This document shows positions 1,605 through 49,394 of a stretch of 64,000 nt of DNA, one piece after another. Under the pieces are notes generated by a model, which was not told the DNA's origin, did not search any database, and saw nothing but the letters and a program-made list of their open reading frames with translations. Numbering within the stretch: the stretch's first letter is position 1; each line of letters begins with the position of its first letter. The position numbers and the translations under genes are program-made. This DNA is from Actinomycetota bacterium (lineage in GTDB: Bacteria > Actinomycetota > Nitriliruptoria > Nitriliruptorales > JAHWKO01): assembly GCA_019347675.1 (NCBI GenBank), contig JAHWKW010000002.1:62001-126000 (forward strand), written 5' to 3'.

Positions 1605-2665
1605 ACGACGTCCCGGATGGGCGGGACCAGGGTCGGCGCCATGGTAGTGACTGGCCGCGGCGCGGTACCGGCTACGGCCCTGTCGCGCGGGGCGGGCGTG
1701 GCCGGTGCCAGGCCGTTGGCGTCCTGGGGGCCCAGGCTCCGCAGGAACGACAGCGTGAGGTCACCTGCCCGACGCAGATCGGTCGGGCGCAGATGCTCGG
1801 GGGTGTCGCGGGGCGAGTGGTAGACCTCGTCGAGGAACGTCCACAGAAGCGCCGCGGGGACGCGGCGGCGGGCGAACGGGCCGTGGTCGCTGATGTCTCC
1901 GCGCGTCTGGACCTCGTACCCGGTGAGACCGGTCTCGGCGGCCACGTGCTGCAGCCGCTGGGCGAGGGTGGCCGGGCCGACGTCGGACCAGCAGATACAG
2001 GTCACGTCGCCGTTGCCGACCATGTCCACGCTGAGTGCGGCGACCACCCGATCGGCGTGGCCCGCGGCGTAGCGGTCGGACCCGAGGTGGTGCTGGCGAG
2101 GCTCGGACGGCTGGTACTCCTCGGCGCCGAACGCGACCAACACCACCGGGACGCCCGTTTCCTCGTCGGCCAGCTCCCGAGCCACGGCCAGCAGCACCCC
2201 GACCCCGCTGGCGTTGTCGTTGGCGCCCGGAGACCCCGCCACGGTGTCGTGGTGGCCGCCGACGACCACGTGTGCTCCGCCGCGCGGGTCGAGGTCGCGC
2301 CACGCCACCACGTTGGCCGTCACGCCGCCCTGCGGGAGCGGGAACGGTTCCTCGACCACGCTCCAGCCAGCGCCCCCCAACCGGTCGGCGATCAGTTGGC
2401 GGGCCTGGCTGTCGGCGGGGCTGCCAGCGGGGCGCGGACCGAGCGCGGTCAGCGCATGCGCGGCTCGCATCGCAGCGTCCGCATCGAACGCCCCGCGGGT
2501 CGGTGAGGGTGCGTTTGGGCTCGGGGAGGGCGACGTCTGCGCGGCGGTGGGCGCACCCGCGTCAGAGGCCGTCGCGGTCGGCGACGTGGCCGGCTGGGCG
2601 CCGCCCGCGCACGCCACCGCCGCGAGCAGGAGCCCCGAGGCCAAGACGTGGACGGGGCGGGACAC
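1601..2665 (-). CDS. M28-family metallopeptidase, predicted lipoprotein
   Basis: Predicted zinc aminopeptidase of family M28, anchored outside the membrane. The first 20 residues form a signal peptide ending in a lipobox-like AAVAC, followed by a long Ala/Thr/Pro/Ser linker. The catalytic domain carries the family metal ligands: GGHHDTVAGSPGANDNASG (His and Asp), AFGAEEY (Glu-Glu), VDMVGNGDV (Asp) and a late histidine in DEVYHSPRDTPEH. Substrate is unknown. The stop overlaps the trpC start, so it seems to head the trpC-trpB transcript although it has no known part in tryptophan synthesis. The fold call is firm, the role is not. Confidence 0.88.
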   Translation of the reverse strand: MSRPVHVLASGLLLAAVACAGGAQPATSPTATASDAGAPTAAQTSPSPSPNAPSPTRGAFDADAAMRAAHALTALGPRPAGSPADSQARQLIADRLGGAGWSVVEEPFPLPQGGVTANVVAWRDLDPRGGAHVVVGGHHDTVAGSPGANDNASGVGVLLAVARELADEETGVPVVLVAFGAEEYQPSEPRQHHLGSDRYAAGHADRVVAALSVDMVGNGDVTCICWSDVGPATLAQRLQHVAAETGLTGYEVQTRGDISDHGPFARRRVPAALLWTFLDEVYHSPRDTPEHLRPTDLRRAGDLTLSFLRSLGPQDANGLAPATPAPRDRAVAGTAPRPVTTMAPTLVPPIRDVV

Positions 2666-2684
2666 CGCCGGATGGTACGAGAAG

Positions 2685-2703
2685 CGGGGCGCCGGACGCC
2701 CCG
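2685..2703. terminator. GC hairpin between the DsrE-like and M28 genes
   Basis: Perfect 7-bp inverted repeat CGGGGCG / CGCCCCG with a CCGGA loop in the 50-bp gap after the DsrE-like gene (minus strand). There is no strong U tract, only GCTTCTC on the minus strand, which is common for terminator-like hairpins in GC-rich actinobacteria. It could end the upstream transcript or only attenuate it. Confidence 0.4.
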
Positions 2704-2715
2704 GAGCGGGCTGGT

Positions 2716-3069
2716 TCAGAACGTGAGGATCTGGTAGCCCGCCACCACGAGCGAGCGGAAGCTCGGGTGACGTTTGTATTCATCCAGCAGCGTGACACCG
2801 GCCTCCCGGACGTCCTCTGTCGCGTCGAAGCTGTCCGCGCAGTAGCTGCACGCGCCCGCGATCGCTCCTCGAACCGACTCGTACAGTCGATGGGCGACGT
2901 GGTCGGGGTCGGAGAGCTTGCCGGGCCAGCGGGTTGCGGCACCGTCGAAGATCAGCGTCGCGTCGTCACCCGCCTCCGTGAACTCCCTGACCACCATCAT
3001 GGCGTTGACCATGCGGGCCAGGTCGTCGTGCGACTCGGTGCCGGCGAACACCACGGTGGCGACCTTCAC
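2716..3069 (-). CDS. DsrE/DsrF-like small protein
   Basis: A 117-residue protein with the DsrE-like fold signature: a hydrophobic first strand (MKVATVVFAGTESHDDLARM), an ATLIFDGAA strand in the middle and a C-terminal VVAGYQILTF. A CSYC pair in the middle (GACSYCADSF) could be redox- or sulfur-active, as in sulfur-relay DsrE proteins, but I cannot assign a partner. It lies alone upstream of the M28-trpC-trpB run and divergent from the FMN reductase at 3156; a GC hairpin follows it. Confidence 0.75.
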   Translation of the reverse strand: MKVATVVFAGTESHDDLARMVNAMMVVREFTEAGDDATLIFDGAATRWPGKLSDPDHVAHRLYESVRGAIAGACSYCADSFDATEDVREAGVTLLDEYKRHPSFRSLVVAGYQILTF

Positions 3070-3155
3070 ATCGACCCCTCTTTGTTGCGGACTCCGAGCG
3101 TGCCAGCATACGGTCGGGCCGAGGTCATGATCGACCCCCCAGCGCAGGATCCACC

Positions 3156-3704
3156 ATGTCTGACATCTCGATCCTCGGATTCGCCGGGAGTTTGCGGGAG
3201 GGCTCCTACAACCGGGCGCTGCTCGACACGGCGGCGGGACGGGCGCCAGAGGGCATGCGCATCGAGATCTTCGATCTCGCGTCGATCCCGCTGTACAACC
3301 GTGACGTCGAGGTGCAGGGCGACCCCGAGCCGGTGGCCGAGTTCAAGCGACGCATCGACGCGTCGGATGGCGTGCTCATCGCCACGCCCGAGTACCAGCA
3401 CGGCATCCCGGGGGTCTTGAAGAACGCGCTCGACTGGGCGTCACGCCCGCCGGGACAGTCGGTCATGGAGGGCAAGCCGGTGGCGATGATGGGGGCGAGC
3501 CCGAGCCCGGTCGGGACCGCACGGGCGCACCTGCAGCTGCGGCGCACGCTGCTGTACCTCGAGGCGGACATCGTCAGCACCCCGGAGGTGCTCGTCTCGT
3601 CGGCGTCGGAGAAGTTCGAGGACGGCCGTCTCGTCGACGAGGACAGCCTGGGGTTCCTCGACCAGCTCCTCGAGACGTTCGCCGACCACATCCGCCAGCG
3701 TTGA
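3156..3704 (+). CDS. NAD(P)H-dependent FMN reductase
   Basis: Flavodoxin-like reductase of the NADPH-dependent FMN reductase family (ChrR/azoreductase-like), cytoplasmic, reducing flavin or quinone-type acceptors. The 182 residues are the usual length. Seen: GFAGSLREGSYNRALLD at the N terminus (phosphate loop for FMN) and TPEYQHGIPGVLKNALDW around residue 75-92, the family signature. The in vivo substrate is unknown. It is transcribed divergently from the DsrE-like gene and converges on trpE with 20 bp between stops. Confidence 0.92.
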   Translation: MSDISILGFAGSLREGSYNRALLDTAAGRAPEGMRIEIFDLASIPLYNRDVEVQGDPEPVAEFKRRIDASDGVLIATPEYQHGIPGVLKNALDWASRPPGQSVMEGKPVAMMGASPSPVGTARAHLQLRRTLLYLEADIVSTPEVLVSSASEKFEDGRLVDEDSLGFLDQLLETFADHIRQR

Positions 3705-40405: not shown

Positions 40406-43600
<3,195 letters not shown>

Positions 43601-43628
43601 CGCCACGGCGCTGACCGTCCGCGCCGCC

Positions 43629-44264
43629 GTGGGCCGGCTCGAGCGCGCCGGCGCGGGGCTCGGCGGTGCGCTCGCGGTGCTGCTGGTGATCGGCCTGGTC
43701 CGCCAGCGGCGCGAGCAGGACCGGATCCGGACCGGCCTCGACCCACCGGTGTTCGCCGCGACCCGCACCGTGCCGCCTGCCGGCGAAGGACCTCTGTCGC
43801 GCCGTCTGGCGTCGTGGGTGCCGCCGCCCCCGCGGACCGCTGTCGGGCGCTTGGCCGCGGCGGTGTGGGCCGCACCGGCCACGCTGGTGGGCGTCGCGGC
43901 CGGCGCGACGACGAAGGGCGACTGGAGACGCGACCGGGCGCTGCGCTGCTGGGTCGTGGCCGGCGGGGACCGGGGCGCTGCCCGCCTCCAGGGATGGCTG
44001 GGATCCGACGGCAACGCGATCGGGCAGGTGGTGATCAGCGCGGTCGCGGCACCGTCACCGGCCCTGCTCGCCCACGAGGCCGTGCACGTGCGGCAGGTCG
44101 AGCGGCTCGGTGTTCTGATCGTGCCGCTGTACACGTGGTTCTGGGCGCGTCGCGGGTACCGCGACCATCCTCTGGAGCGTGCGGCCCGGCTGGGGGCTGC
44201 TCGCTCGTTGCGCCGTCACGTGGGCGACCGGGAGCCTGCCGTGACGGCCGCGGAGGCCACCTGA
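43629..44264 (+). CDS. Membrane protein with HExxH motif
   Basis: About 211 residues, with a membrane segment GGALAVLLVIGLV near the start, then a basic part and the motif LLAHEAVHVRQVERLG. The HExxH (H-E-A-V-H) of zinc metalloproteases is followed by hydrophobic IVPLYTWFWARRGYRDHPLE, a layout I recall in uncharacterised actinobacterial proteins. Start is uncertain: GTG at 43629, or upstream CTG/GTG overlapping the end of ileS. Proteolytic function is a guess. Confidence 0.65.
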   Translation: MGRLERAGAGLGGALAVLLVIGLVRQRREQDRIRTGLDPPVFAATRTVPPAGEGPLSRRLASWVPPPPRTAVGRLAAAVWAAPATLVGVAAGATTKGDWRRDRALRCWVVAGGDRGAARLQGWLGSDGNAIGQVVISAVAAPSPALLAHEAVHVRQVERLGVLIVPLYTWFWARRGYRDHPLERAARLGAARSLRRHVGDREPAVTAAEAT

Positions 44265-44294: not shown

Positions 44295-45128
44295 TCAGGA
44301 CAGCTGCTGGTGGATCTCGCGAGCGGTCGTCTCGCCGACGCCTCGGACCTGCACCAGATCGTCGACGCGGGCGTCGCGGATCGCCTCGAGCGACCCGAAG
44401 CGATCGAGGAGCGCCCGCGCCTTGGCGGGACCCAACCCGCGCACCGCGTTCAGCTCACGCATCGCCGCGGGGCCGGTCGTCCCGCCGGCGGCCTTCTTCG
44501 CGGCCTTCTTCGTTCGCGCACGTGCGGCTTTCTTCGCGGCCTTCTTGGCTGGCGCGCGTGCGGACTTCTTGCGCCGGGCGGGAGCAGCGGTCTTCTTGGC
44601 CGCTGCACCCCTGGTCGCTGCCTTCTTTGCGGCAGCCTTCCTGGCGGGTCTCCGCGGCGGCGGCTGCGGGCGCACGTCCTCGGGCGGCGCGGTCGATTCG
44701 GTGGCCGACGCTGCCCAGGGGCTGACCGGCTGGTCGGCGCCGGTGGCGCCGGTGGGCGTCTCGGCCGCAGGCTCCGGCGGGCGCTCCCTGGCGGCCGCTT
44801 CCGGCCCCGGCCACCGTCGTTCACCGGGGCGCGCTCCGGAGATTCCCGGCGCTTCGCTGATCCCGGCCGATGCCGGCCCGCGTTGCTGCCACCCGCCGCC
44901 CTCCACCTGAGGTGACGCGCCCGGCCCGTAGCCCTGTTCCTGTTGTGGCGCGCCAGCCCGACCGACGCGGCGCTGCAGCACCCCGATCCCGAGGAAGATG
45001 ATCGCAAGGACACAGGACGCGATCGACGCCCACACGAGCGCGAGGACGTTCTGGATGATCCCGATCGCCAGCGTGACCGCCGCCACGATGACGAGCAGGA
45101 AACTGATAACGATCACCGGATGCACCAC
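44295..45128 (-). CDS. Membrane protein with Lys/Ala-rich linker and HhH DNA-binding end
   Basis: A 277-residue protein. Two membrane helices at the N terminus (residues about 5-50, VISFLLVIVAAVTLAIG), a Pro/Gly/Glu-rich stretch to about 155, then a histone-H1-like part with repeated A-A-K-K-A-A (about 158-218), and a helix-hairpin-helix pair LNAVRGLGPAKARALLDRFG / DLVQVRGVGETTAREIHQQL, as at the end of UvrC/XPF. I read it as a membrane-anchored DNA-binding protein; nothing shows nuclease activity. It lies beyond divIVA in the division cluster. Confidence 0.7.
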   Translation of the reverse strand: MVHPVIVISFLLVIVAAVTLAIGIIQNVLALVWASIASCVLAIIFLGIGVLQRRVGRAGAPQQEQGYGPGASPQVEGGGWQQRGPASAGISEAPGISGARPGERRWPGPEAAARERPPEPAAETPTGATGADQPVSPWAASATESTAPPEDVRPQPPPRRPARKAAAKKAATRGAAAKKTAAPARRKKSARAPAKKAAKKAARARTKKAAKKAAGGTTGPAAMRELNAVRGLGPAKARALLDRFGSLEAIRDARVDDLVQVRGVGETTAREIHQQLS

Positions 45129-45242: not shown

Positions 45243-45800
45243 TCACTCGGGGACGGCGACACCTTGCCGACCTTGGGCTGTGTCGTCTACGGTCCCCGAC
45301 TGTCTGACCGCCGGCGGGGCGACGGGAGCCATCTCTTTCACCGCACGCAGGTGACGTTCGGCGACGATCCGAAGACCCGATCGGTACTCCTCCTCAAGAG
45401 TGCGCAACGTCTCCATGCGGTGCTCGAGCGCGTCGACGTCCCGCCGGAGCTCGACCTGGGTCCTTCGGGCCTCATCGGTGGCGCGGGCCACGATCCGCTC
45501 CGCTTCGCGATGCGCTTCGGACACGATCTCGGCGGCGCGCTCGCGGGCTTCTTCGAGCGTCTGTTCGGCGGCACGCTGTGCCGTGACGAGCGTGCGCTTC
45601 AACGTGACCTCGGTCTCCTGCATCTCGTCGACGCGGGCCGCGACACGCTCGGCTTCGCGCCGGGCCTCCTGCAGCTGCAACTCCAGCCGCTCGAGCTGAT
45701 CAGCGACCCGATCGAGCAGCTCGTCGACCTGCTGCACGGAGTAGCCGCGCACGGCCTGCTTCAGCGGGTAGTTGACGATGTCGTTGGGCGTCAGGGGCAC
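45243..45800 (-). CDS. divIVA: DivIVA/Wag31 polar growth protein
   Basis: A 185-residue coiled-coil protein that marks cell poles and division sites. The N-terminal LTPNDIVNYPLKQAVRGYSV is the conserved membrane-binding motif; the rest is coiled coil (about 30-145) rich in Glu/Arg heptads, ending in a short disordered tail. In actinobacteria it directs polar wall growth. It follows yggT by about 60 bp. Confidence 0.93.
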   Translation of the reverse strand: MPLTPNDIVNYPLKQAVRGYSVQQVDELLDRVADQLERLELQLQEARREAERVAARVDEMQETEVTLKRTLVTAQRAAEQTLEEARERAAEIVSEAHREAERIVARATDEARRTQVELRRDVDALEHRMETLRTLEEEYRSGLRIVAERHLRAVKEMAPVAPPAVRQSGTVDDTAQGRQGVAVPE

Positions 45801-45860: not shown

Positions 45861-46127
45861 TCACACCGGGCAGCGCAGCGCCCCGCGGATCACGAAGATC
45901 ACCACGAACAGCACGAGAACGGACATGTCGAGGCCGATCCCACCGAACTGCAGGGGCGGCAGCACCCGCCTGAGCGGCTCCAGCATGGGGTTCACGATCC
46001 GCGCCACCCACCGCACCAACGGCCGGATCGGTTCCGGTGGACTCGGGATCCAGGAGAACACCACGTACACCAGAAGCAGGATCACCACAGCGAGCAGCAG
46101 CAGACAGATCAGCTCTACAACGACCAC
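45861..46127 (-). CDS. yggT: YggT-family membrane protein
   Basis: An 88-residue protein with two membrane helices (LICLLLLAVVILLLVYVVFS and SVLVLFVVIFVIRGAL) separated by the conserved R-x-V-N-P-M-L-E-P-L-R-R loop (RIVNPMLEPLRRVLPP). Usual neighbour of sepF and divIVA; its part in division is not defined. Confidence 0.92.
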   Translation of the reverse strand: MVVVELICLLLLAVVILLLVYVVFSWIPSPPEPIRPLVRWVARIVNPMLEPLRRVLPPLQFGGIGLDMSVLVLFVVIFVIRGALRCPV

Positions 46128-46145: not shown

Positions 46146-46673
46146 TCAGGCGTTGGCAGACGGGGCGCCGTCGACGTGGTAGCCGAGGTCGCTCAAGCGT
46201 CGACGTTCCTCGAGCGGCACATCCACCCCCTGGGGCAAGAGGAGAAACGCCCGTTGGCCGGCGGGGACGATCCGCCCGCGCAGAGCGAAGATCACGCCGC
46301 TCACGAAGTCCAGCAGCCGCCTGCCGGTGCGGGTATCGACGTCGCCGACGTCGAGCAGGACCGCCTGCCCGCCGCGGTAGCCCTCCCCGACCTGCTCGGC
46401 GGCGTCATCGAACGAGGTCGCCCGCACGATCGCGACGCGGGCGTAGCCGCCATCGAGGGGACGGACGTGGCTCGAGCGATCCTCGCTGCGCAGCGGTCGG
46501 ACGTTCGCGTCAGGCCCCACCGCACGAGGCCAGGCCCGACGATGGTCGTCCTGAGCCGGGGCCGCGGAGAAGTCGGGCTCCGTGTTGCGCGGGGTCCCTG
46601 GGCCGTACTCGTCGTCCTCGGGCTCCTCGACCAGCCCGAGGTAGATGAGCGTCTTCCGCCACATGCTGCTCAT
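46146..46673 (-). CDS. sepF: Cell division protein SepF
   Basis: Membrane anchor of FtsZ in bacteria that lack FtsA. The 175 residues begin with an amphipathic helix (MSSMWRKTLIYLGLVEEPED), then a linker, then the SepF domain from about 80: VAIVRATSFDDAAEQVGEGY, AVLLDVGDVDTRTGRRLLDF and VSGVIFALRGRIVPAG. Overlaps yggS by four bases. Binds the C-terminal peptide of FtsZ in homologues. Confidence 0.95.
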   Translation of the reverse strand: MSSMWRKTLIYLGLVEEPEDDEYGPGTPRNTEPDFSAAPAQDDHRRAWPRAVGPDANVRPLRSEDRSSHVRPLDGGYARVAIVRATSFDDAAEQVGEGYRGGQAVLLDVGDVDTRTGRRLLDFVSGVIFALRGRIVPAGQRAFLLLPQGVDVPLEERRRLSDLGYHVDGAPSANA

Positions 46674-47440: not shown

Positions 47441-48234
47441 GCGGCTTCCGAGTGGCGGACGACGATTCCGGCCTGGCGGCCCGCGCGGTGGTCGGCGCGG
47501 TAGCTGAACCAGCGTGCTGACGGATCACAGCGCGTGCATCCGAGCCAGTCCTCGACGATCTCCACCCCCCAACGGCGCAGGATCGCAGCGACCGCACCGG
47601 GCAGGTGCAGGGACGGCGTCCCCCAGGCGGTCGTGGCGTCCGCGGCCGGTTCGCGGTCGGTGACGTCGCGCTGCAGCGCCAACGGCACCTCGTAGCAGCA
47701 GCCGCCGATCGCCGGCCCGATCGCGGCGCGGAGCGTCTGTGGCGACGCACCGAGGCGGTCGAGAGCCTCCAGGGACGCCTCCACCACGCTGGCGACGACA
47801 CCACGGCGGCCGGCGTGGACGGCGGCCACCGGACCCGCGGAGGATCCCAGCAGCAACGGGACACAGTCGGCGACCTGCACCGTCAGGGCCCGATCCGGCT
47901 CGGCGGTGACGAGCGCATCGACGCCGCGCAGCTCCGCGCCTGACACCGTGTCGGCGTCGACCACGCCGACCTCAGCGCCGTGGAGCTGCTGCATGAAGTG
48001 CAGGGCGTCGACCGACACGCCGATCAGGTCGGCCACGGCGGCGCGGACGCGTGCCAGCCGCCGCGGCTGGTGCGGACGTCGATGCGCGATGCTGCCCGTG
48101 GCCCGACCGGTGAACCACGCGGCCGTCCCCGCCGCGAGCCACACCGGTCCCGACACGCCCTCGGGGCGGTCGACGTCGCCGGTGGCCGGCTCAGCGCGCG
48201 TGGCGGCGGGGCCGGCGTCGGCGTTCACCGTCAC
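47437..48234 (-). CDS. pgeF: Peptidoglycan editing factor PgeF (YfiH/laccase-domain)
   Basis: Copper/zinc-domain protein that prevents serine from entering peptidoglycan stems in homologues. The 265 residues show [26 protein letters not shown] and [15 protein letters not shown], the three conserved His/Cys motifs. The N-terminal 25 residues are low-complexity. Start overlaps the ftsZ stop by four bases. Confidence 0.92.
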
Positions 48235-49394
48235 CGCAGGAAGCTCGGGATGTCGAGGTCCTCGTCCTCGTCAGCGTCGATCACCACCGACGGCCGCGGG
48301 GCGGGGCGTGGCCGCGTCGACGGGCGGAACACCTCGTCGTCGAACTCATCCTCGTCGTCGTCCTCGATCAGCGGGGACGGGGCGGGCGCAGTGTCGCGCC
48401 GCAGCTGCTGAGCGACGAAGGCGCCCTCCTGCTCGACCGGCTCGTCCCAGGTGTCGAACCCGGCGGCGATCACCGTGACCTTCACCTCGTCACCGAGGCT
48501 GTCGTCGATCACGGCCCCGAAGATGATGTTGGCATCCGGGTGAGCGGCCTTGGTGATCACGTCCGCGGCCTCGTTGACCTCGAACAGGCCCAGGTCGCTT
48601 CCGCCGGCCAACATCAGCAGCACGCCACGCGCACCGTCGATCGACGCCTCGAGCAGCGGCGACGAGATCGCCAGGTTGGCCGCCTCGAGCGCGCGCTGGT
48701 CGCCTCGTGCCGTCCCGATGCCCATGAGGGCCGAGCCGGCGTCCTTCATGACGGTGCGGACGTCGGCGAAGTCGAGGTTGATCAGCCCCGGGGTGGTGAT
48801 CAGGTCGGTGATGCCTTGAACGCCTTGGAGCAGCACCTCGTCGGCGAGGCGGAACGCCTGCACGACCGACGTCTCCCCGTCGGAGATCTGCAGCAGCCGG
48901 TCGTTGGGGATGACGATGAGCGTGTCGACCTTGTCCCGCAGGTTCTTGATGCCGTCCTCGGCCTGGAGGTTGCGTTTCCGACCTTCGAACGCGAACGGAC
49001 GGGTGACGACGCCGATGGTCAGCGCGCCGAGTTCCTTGGCGACCTCTGCGACCACCGGCGCGCCACCGGTCCCGGTGCCACCGCCCTCGCCGGCGGTGAC
49101 GAACACCATGTCGGCGCCTTTGAGGACCTCGTTGACCTCGTCGCGGTGATCATCGGCCGCCTGGCGGCCGATCACCGGGTCGGACCCGGCACCCAGGCCG
49201 CGGGTGATGTCGCGGCCGATGTCGAGCTTGACGTCCGCGTCGGACATCAGCAGTGCCTGCGCATCGGTGTTGATGGCGATGAACTCCACGCCCCGCAACC
49301 CGGCGTCGATCATCCGGTTCACCGCGTTCACACCTCCGCCGCCGATCCCAACCACTTTGATCACGGCGAGGTAGTTCTGCGGGTTCGCCGCCAT
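48231..49394 (-). CDS. ftsZ: Cell division GTPase FtsZ
   Basis: Forms the cytokinetic ring. The 387 residues carry [18 protein letters not shown], the tubulin signature [12 protein letters not shown] at about residue 105, [11 protein letters not shown] (T7 loop), an acidic linker of about 60 residues, and a C-terminal [11 protein letters not shown] peptide, the docking site for SepF. There is no ftsA in the cluster. The gap before it holds its own putative promoter; see 49613-49645. Confidence 0.97.

Follow-up and report, generated by a model that had tools for sequence, protein, structure and literature searches.

Locus and Protein Architecture

The window is the whole stretch of 64,000 nucleotides that was analysed. 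In it, the minus-strand run ftsZ-pgeF-yggS-sepF-yggT-divIVA is closed by a gene encoding a single chain of 273-277 aa. The chain begins with a two-helix membrane hairpin and continues through a Pro/Gly-rich linker and a Lys/Ala-rich stretch to a UvrC/XPF-type double helix-hairpin-helix, (HhH)2. The preliminary description had proposed this combination in one protein at the end of the divisome cluster beside divIVA. The combination was confirmed by the translation, the Pfam HHH_5 match and the AlphaFold model, and the gene is indeed the last of the run. The features are as follows.

44295..45116 (-): the gene with its corrected likely start (GTG at 45116, 273 aa), from the ORF list and translation
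45051..45116 (-): membrane helix 1, residues 5-26 of the 277-aa frame, which opens the family-defining hairpin (A1/A3 alignments; AlphaFold helix)
44976..45044 (-): membrane helix 2, residues 29-51, followed by QRRVGR; cytoplasmic end predicted by the positive-inside rule (AlphaFold)
44658..44972 (-): Pro/Gly/Ala-rich, nearly neutral linker, residues 53-157, predicted to be disordered (composition; pLDDT <50 in most blocks)
44481..44657 (-): Lys/Ala-rich stretch resembling histone H1 in composition, with 15 K, 9 R, and 24 A among its 59 residues (158-216)
44301..44453 (-): double helix-hairpin-helix of UvrC/XPF type, with hairpins GLG (in 226-244) and GVG (in 256-276) (Pfam HHH_5, PDB profile search, AlphaFold, Foldseek)
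45243..45800 (-): divIVA, directly upstream, with a 126 bp gap to the corrected start (Pfam DivIVA, 1e-24)
45861..46127 (-): yggT, conserved neighbour (Pfam YGGT, 2.1e-14)
46146..46673 (-): sepF, conserved neighbour (Pfam SepF, 1.3e-15)
48231..49394 (-): ftsZ, upstream end of the examined run (NCBIfam ftsZ, 418 bits, cut-off 295)

The names pgeF and yggS were given from sequence and position, with no model match behind them. No terminator-like site was found on the minus strand between divIVA and the window gene. Past the gene lie a convergent gene of 237 aa (motif HEAVHVRQ) and then ileS, which is also convergent to the run. No com genes were present among the neighbours examined. The 237-aa protein (43551-44264, +) carries the motifs HEAVHVRQVERLG and RGYRDHPLERAAR, has no Pfam match, and is possibly metallopeptidase-like. 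Its gene is kept between ileS and divIVA in relatives of the same order, with or without the hairpin gene.

The ORF described before (44295-45128, minus strand) is present and has 277 codons counted from the first GTG (45128), which lies upstream in frame; its start was revised. Nearly all close relatives begin with M-I-x-x-S, which makes the GTG at 45116 the likelier start. A Shine-Dalgarno-like run, AAGGGG, sits 11 nt before this codon, and translation probably begins there.

The part that had been called acidic and proline-rich is residues 53-157. Of its 105 residues, 19 are P, 16 G, and 18 A, so that the proline-rich reading stands, whereas 12 D+E against 10 R make it nearly neutral. In the Lys/Ala-rich stretch that follows, lysine accounts for 25% of residues; the proteins of seven neighbouring genes have 1.3% (binomial P about 2e-15). 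The enrichment lies far over the background of the neighbours, and the stretch is therefore no by-product of the 72% GC content. The window protein has no match to Pfam HC2, the histone H1-like family (cut-off 40 bits), and judged by its sequence the stretch is like histone H1 in composition only. The Lys/Ala stretches of two homologues exceed this cut-off, i.e., L021 with 52.6 bits and L080 with 44.8 bits, and the L021 linker is a near-perfect ATAKK repeat.

The C-terminal domain matched Pfam HHH_5 with 47.9 bits (cut-off 27; 1.9e-12), and both HhH motifs were over the Pfam cut-off. A profile search of the PDB matched it to UvrC (1kft, 4.7e-12). In the AlphaFold model, residues 221-270 of the 273-aa form have pLDDT of 94-97, compared with about 57-82 for the N-terminal helices, and Foldseek matched the model to XPF, ERCC1, UvrC, and DisA. 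Sequence and predicted fold agree with the (HhH)2 of UvrC, XPF, and DisA, and the domain is real. Unlike in those proteins, it is here part of a membrane protein that has no enzymatic domain. The best profile matches include the DNA-binding UvrC, topoisomerase V, DNA ligase, and XPF, and the tail may bind DNA. The net charge of the domain is near-neutral (+1), and its relatives by profile and fold also include protein- or RNA-contacting cases, i.e., ERCC1, FAAP24, and L32e.

The same HhH module was found at two other loci of the own genome, G000. On contig C1 (L004, 1495-2223, -), it forms the C-terminus of a 242-aa protein that has no membrane helices, an N-terminus near MFDFFKRILGGG, and a disordered middle. 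On contig C8 (L002, 1489-3339, -), it forms the C-terminus of a long coiled-coil protein of 616 aa.

A divIVA-Linked Hairpin Family

The full-length window protein found no match as a genome query, and the search patterns fell mostly in the low-complexity linker. Relatives were therefore sought through divIVA, and then with a hairpin profile. In the first synteny set, DivIVA was detected in 13 of 21 genomes. Besides the window, hairpin and HhH homologues stood behind divIVA in G020, G010, G005, and G001, and a hairpin only in G003 and G012. The other six divIVA genomes have the HEAxHxRQ gene and divIVA in succession, with no hairpin gene between them. Alignment within this set was limited to the hairpin (31-56% identity to the window) and the HhH domain (about 50%). 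The linkers range from 52 to 253 residues; some are Lys/Ala-rich and others slightly acidic.

Profile A1 was built from the seven synteny homologues and enlarged to 23 sequences as A3. The search covered 66 genomes of the window's class and 246 genomes drawn evenly from the phylum. The family was found in 28 of the class genomes at E <1e-6, and the profile had matches in 47 of the phylum genomes at 0.001. A total of 58 members spread over the phylum was retained. Left out were false matches in G198 and G127, secondary matches in G022, G042, and G057, and a contig-edge fragment in G248. The window protein, itself in the seed, scored 1.4e-23. It has the M-I-x-x-S hairpin and a gene directly 3' of divIVA, as other members of the divIVA-linked family do. 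The hairpin of the family has no model in Pfam or NCBIfam. A candidate match of the window protein to DUF2530 in Pfam was dropped, as its E of 0.026 was below the cut-off.

The neighbourhood is conserved. On the same strand, 55 of the 58 members follow divIVA directly, at distances between -4 and 248 bp from it (median 56), three of them with a 4 bp overlap. The three exceptions are one member at a contig edge, one in L096 with a coiled coil in place of divIVA, and one without a recognised DivIVA. Since the members beyond the seven seed genomes, 51 of 58, were found by the profile without use of divIVA, the linkage is an independent result. The family also reaches mycobacteria-like genomes, where the DivIVA was identified as Wag31 (382 bits, cut-off 260). 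The L096 locus (1919-3486, genome G099) has sepF-yggT, the short coiled-coil-like ORF that replaces divIVA, and after it a tandem pair of two-helix proteins whose tails are Lys/Ala or Lys/Pro.

Topology and Exchangeable Tails

Nearly all members have 2-6 K/R in the 18 residues following helix 2; with a single exception, the inter-helix loop is neutral or acidic. By the positive-inside rule, the tail is therefore predicted to be cytoplasmic.

The hairpin is the conserved part of the family, and the tail is the least conserved. The (HhH)2 tails were found in 12 members, all from the window's class. Six of them have the Lys/Ala linker and six do not, so that neither module is peculiar to the window protein. 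The architecture of the window recurs in other genera and families and is thus not a product of chance. In the six HhH members without a basic linker, the second hairpin lacks its second glycine (GLT, GMT, GIS, GVS, GID). An intact second G-h-G hairpin is present in five of the six members with a Lys/Ala linker, compared with none of the six without it (Fisher P 0.015, kinship ignored), an association on which no conclusion is based here.

Tails with only the Lys/Ala stretch were found outside the class in G113, G124, and G199. The Lys/Ala member of G022 spans an assembly gap, and the absence of HhH there is therefore no evidence. Another kind of tail, also from outside the class, has a Lys/Ala or other linker and a C-terminal Cys/His domain, FHxxxCxYA...GYxxCxxCKP. 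This domain is under the Pfam Ada_Zn_binding threshold. The top structural match of the domain is the N-Ada/DNA complex (1u8b, E 0.025), and by sequence it comes closest to N-Ada (E 0.34), so that the Ada identity is a lead and not a fact. The domain was seen in L067, L068, L070, L071, L078, L086, L095, and L099. Members of family f44 (L079, L083, L092; 370-394 aa) have mixed-charge tails with RRGRPPxPKP or similar AT-hook-like ends, a reading made by eye and pattern only (RRGRP ends in L079 and L092). In family f4 (L045, L049, L050, L052), the tails are 27-39% proline and end in PPPPPPPA. Four members from Wag31 genomes have 114-140 aa, including an acidic tail of about 60-85 residues. At least a dozen members have a very short tail or no tail, and one tail-less member shares its genus with two HhH-bearing species. 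By sequence comparison, the tails are lineage-specific and the anchor is conserved. The phylum-wide divIVA-linked hairpin family and the exchange of its tails are what is new here.

Comparison with Known Systems

The preliminary description did not recognise the organisation from any described system. A precedent is Rv3852, the 'H-NS' of M. tuberculosis, a membrane-anchored protein with KAAK/PAAK repeats that binds DNA and the DivIVA homologue Wag31; Wag31 is mislocalised when Rv3852 is absent (PMC8233713). Rv3852 and the window protein both have Lys/Ala repeats of DNA-binding type and a membrane anchor in one chain. Both are tied to DivIVA/Wag31, functionally in Rv3852 and by gene linkage in the window. 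Rv3852 has one C-terminal helix, no HhH, and is found in some mycobacteria only, whereas the window protein has an N-terminal two-helix hairpin and (HhH)2, and its gene, unlike that of Rv3852, directly follows divIVA. The window protein did not match the Rv3852 family model (NF050153), and its homologue L080 reached 21.6 bits (cut-off 100). On the best reading, the window protein would work like Rv3852, by analogy, and would not be its homologue.

The mycobacterial wag31 gene is Rv2145c (PMC3989709). A small membrane protein of the Rv2144c type, in the same position in Wag31-bearing genomes, belongs to the same hairpin family by profile. Unlike the window protein, these members have an acidic tail without Lys/Ala or HhH. 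They are likely the orthologues of Rv2144c, by position beside wag31 and not by alignment. In the EXIT study, Rv2144c is among the exported fusions (PMC5405230). The listing is explicable if the fusion point lies within the hairpin, but it could also speak against a cytoplasmic tail in that protein.

GlpR is a membrane protein whose basic, disordered cytoplasmic region IDR2 (pI 10.9) binds the N-terminal domain of Wag31; a DNA role is not reported for it (PMC10522489). The window protein, with its membrane helices and its charged tail that is predicted to be disordered and cytoplasmic, is similar to GlpR/SepX. GlpR/SepX differs in its three helices, two disordered regions, and a gene near glp/moeA. 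The window protein had no match to the SepX/GlpR model (NF050099, cut-off 150), and none of the A3 hairpins matched it at 0.05. In the own genome (L119, G000:C10), a moeA/glp-like gene is followed by a GlpR/SepX-like gene, the best match of the genome. This arrangement suggests that the window lineage, like Corynebacterium, has the Glp-GlpR pair. Because the genome has its own GlpR-like gene, next to a moeA/glp-like gene at another locus, the window protein was ruled out as GlpR/SepX.

ComEA also has a membrane segment, a linker, and HhH. It has a single helix, an exported HhH, and another neighbourhood, compared with two helices in the window protein. The window protein scored 28.2 bits against the comE model (TIGR01259, cut-off 152), mainly from its HhH part. 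In Bacillus, RacA links the chromosome to the pole and DivIVA, and Noc links the chromosome to the membrane. Neither is known to have an integral membrane hairpin or HhH. The likeness of RacA and Noc to the window protein, drawn by description, lies in the proposed role only.

Proposed Function

The preferred explanation, which we hold tentatively and with slightly less than even confidence, is that the encoded protein serves as a DivIVA-linked nucleoid tether anchored in the membrane. The hairpin, with both ends predicted in the cytoplasm, would fix the protein in the membrane. Made together with DivIVA, it would be expected at or near the DivIVA-rich membrane of the poles and the closing septum, by analogy with Rv3852 and GlpR. 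The flexible linker would present the cationic Lys/Ala arm and the (HhH)2 domain, and these would grip DNA without sequence preference and so keep chromosomal DNA at the membrane. In an alternative direction, the nucleoid would steer DivIVA, as reported for Rv3852. The DivIVA side of this explanation comes from gene linkage, and a gene neighbourhood is no proof of physical contact. The analysis itself establishes the architecture, the family, the gene linkage, the fold predicted for the tail, and the topology signal, and DNA binding, DivIVA contact, location, and physiological role are put forward as predictions, partly by analogy. The idea of a DNA tether at the membrane, already raised in the preliminary description, is thus retained on the predicted cytoplasmic tail and the conserved neighbourhood, although the tail is not conserved. 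In favour of the tether, the same hairpin carries other modules of DNA-binding type outside the class (Lys/Ala, Ada-like Cys/His, AT-hook-like). Against it, many members have tails that do not look DNA-binding, i.e., acidic, Pro-rich, very short, or none, so that the original function of the family may reside in the hairpin, with no part for DNA.

Because of these members, the main rival explanation is a regulator of DivIVA or the divisome, of the GlpR type. The hairpin would contact DivIVA or membrane division proteins, variable and oppositely charged disordered tails would recruit proteins, and the DNA-like tails would be lineage-specific and incidental. Conservation in the hairpin and not in the tail, with tails from acidic to basic to none, is consistent with such a regulator, as is GlpR itself, which has a similar plan and binds Wag31 (PMC10522489). 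A mycobacteria-like member matched the SepX/GlpR model weakly over the hairpin, with 20.6 bits, but this is far below the cut-off of 150, and the own genome has its glp-glpR-like pair at another locus. Nor would a regulator account for the repeated resemblance to DNA-binding modules among tails of unrelated structure. We consider it doubtful, but a serious possibility.

Binding of the tail to RNA or ribosomes, which would tether translation near the divisome, is improbable. Lys/Ala tails and HhH domains do occur in ribosomal proteins, and archaeal L32e is among the profile matches, but the closest sequence and fold matches are mostly DNA-binding proteins (UvrC, XPF, DisA, LigA). A membrane-based scaffold for DNA repair, whose UvrC-type HhH would act near the septum on damaged or trapped DNA, would fit the close relationship of the domain to UvrC and DisA. 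It is quite improbable, as the protein has no nuclease or repair domain, its neighbours are division genes, and HhH is missing from some members. The resemblance in plan to ComEA and the comE score would suggest an exported DNA receptor for natural transformation. This is highly improbable, and the receptor was rejected on profile and predicted topology: the score is far from the cut-off, the positive residues after the second of two helices would place the HhH inside, and the linkage is to divIVA and not, among the neighbours examined, to com genes.

A wider proposal concerns the unnamed family as a whole. It would couple DivIVA to the chromosome across the phylum, with a common hairpin fitted independently with exchangeable DNA-binding tails, i.e., (HhH)2 with or without an H1-like arm, an H1-like arm alone, an Ada-like zinc domain, or AT-hooks, as a nucleoid tether of the pole or septum. 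In this general form, it is rather unlikely.

DivIVA is the organiser of polar growth in actinobacteria. The means by which the chromosome stays at the pole and off the septum are only partly known. Contacts of ParB/ParA with DivIVA were described in Corynebacterium and mycobacteria (PMC3989709). A membrane protein encoded beside divIVA and carrying tails of DNA-binding type is a direct candidate for a link between pole and chromosome. Unrelated DNA-binding-like modules that replace one another on a single anchor would also, if true, give an instructive example of convergent evolution.
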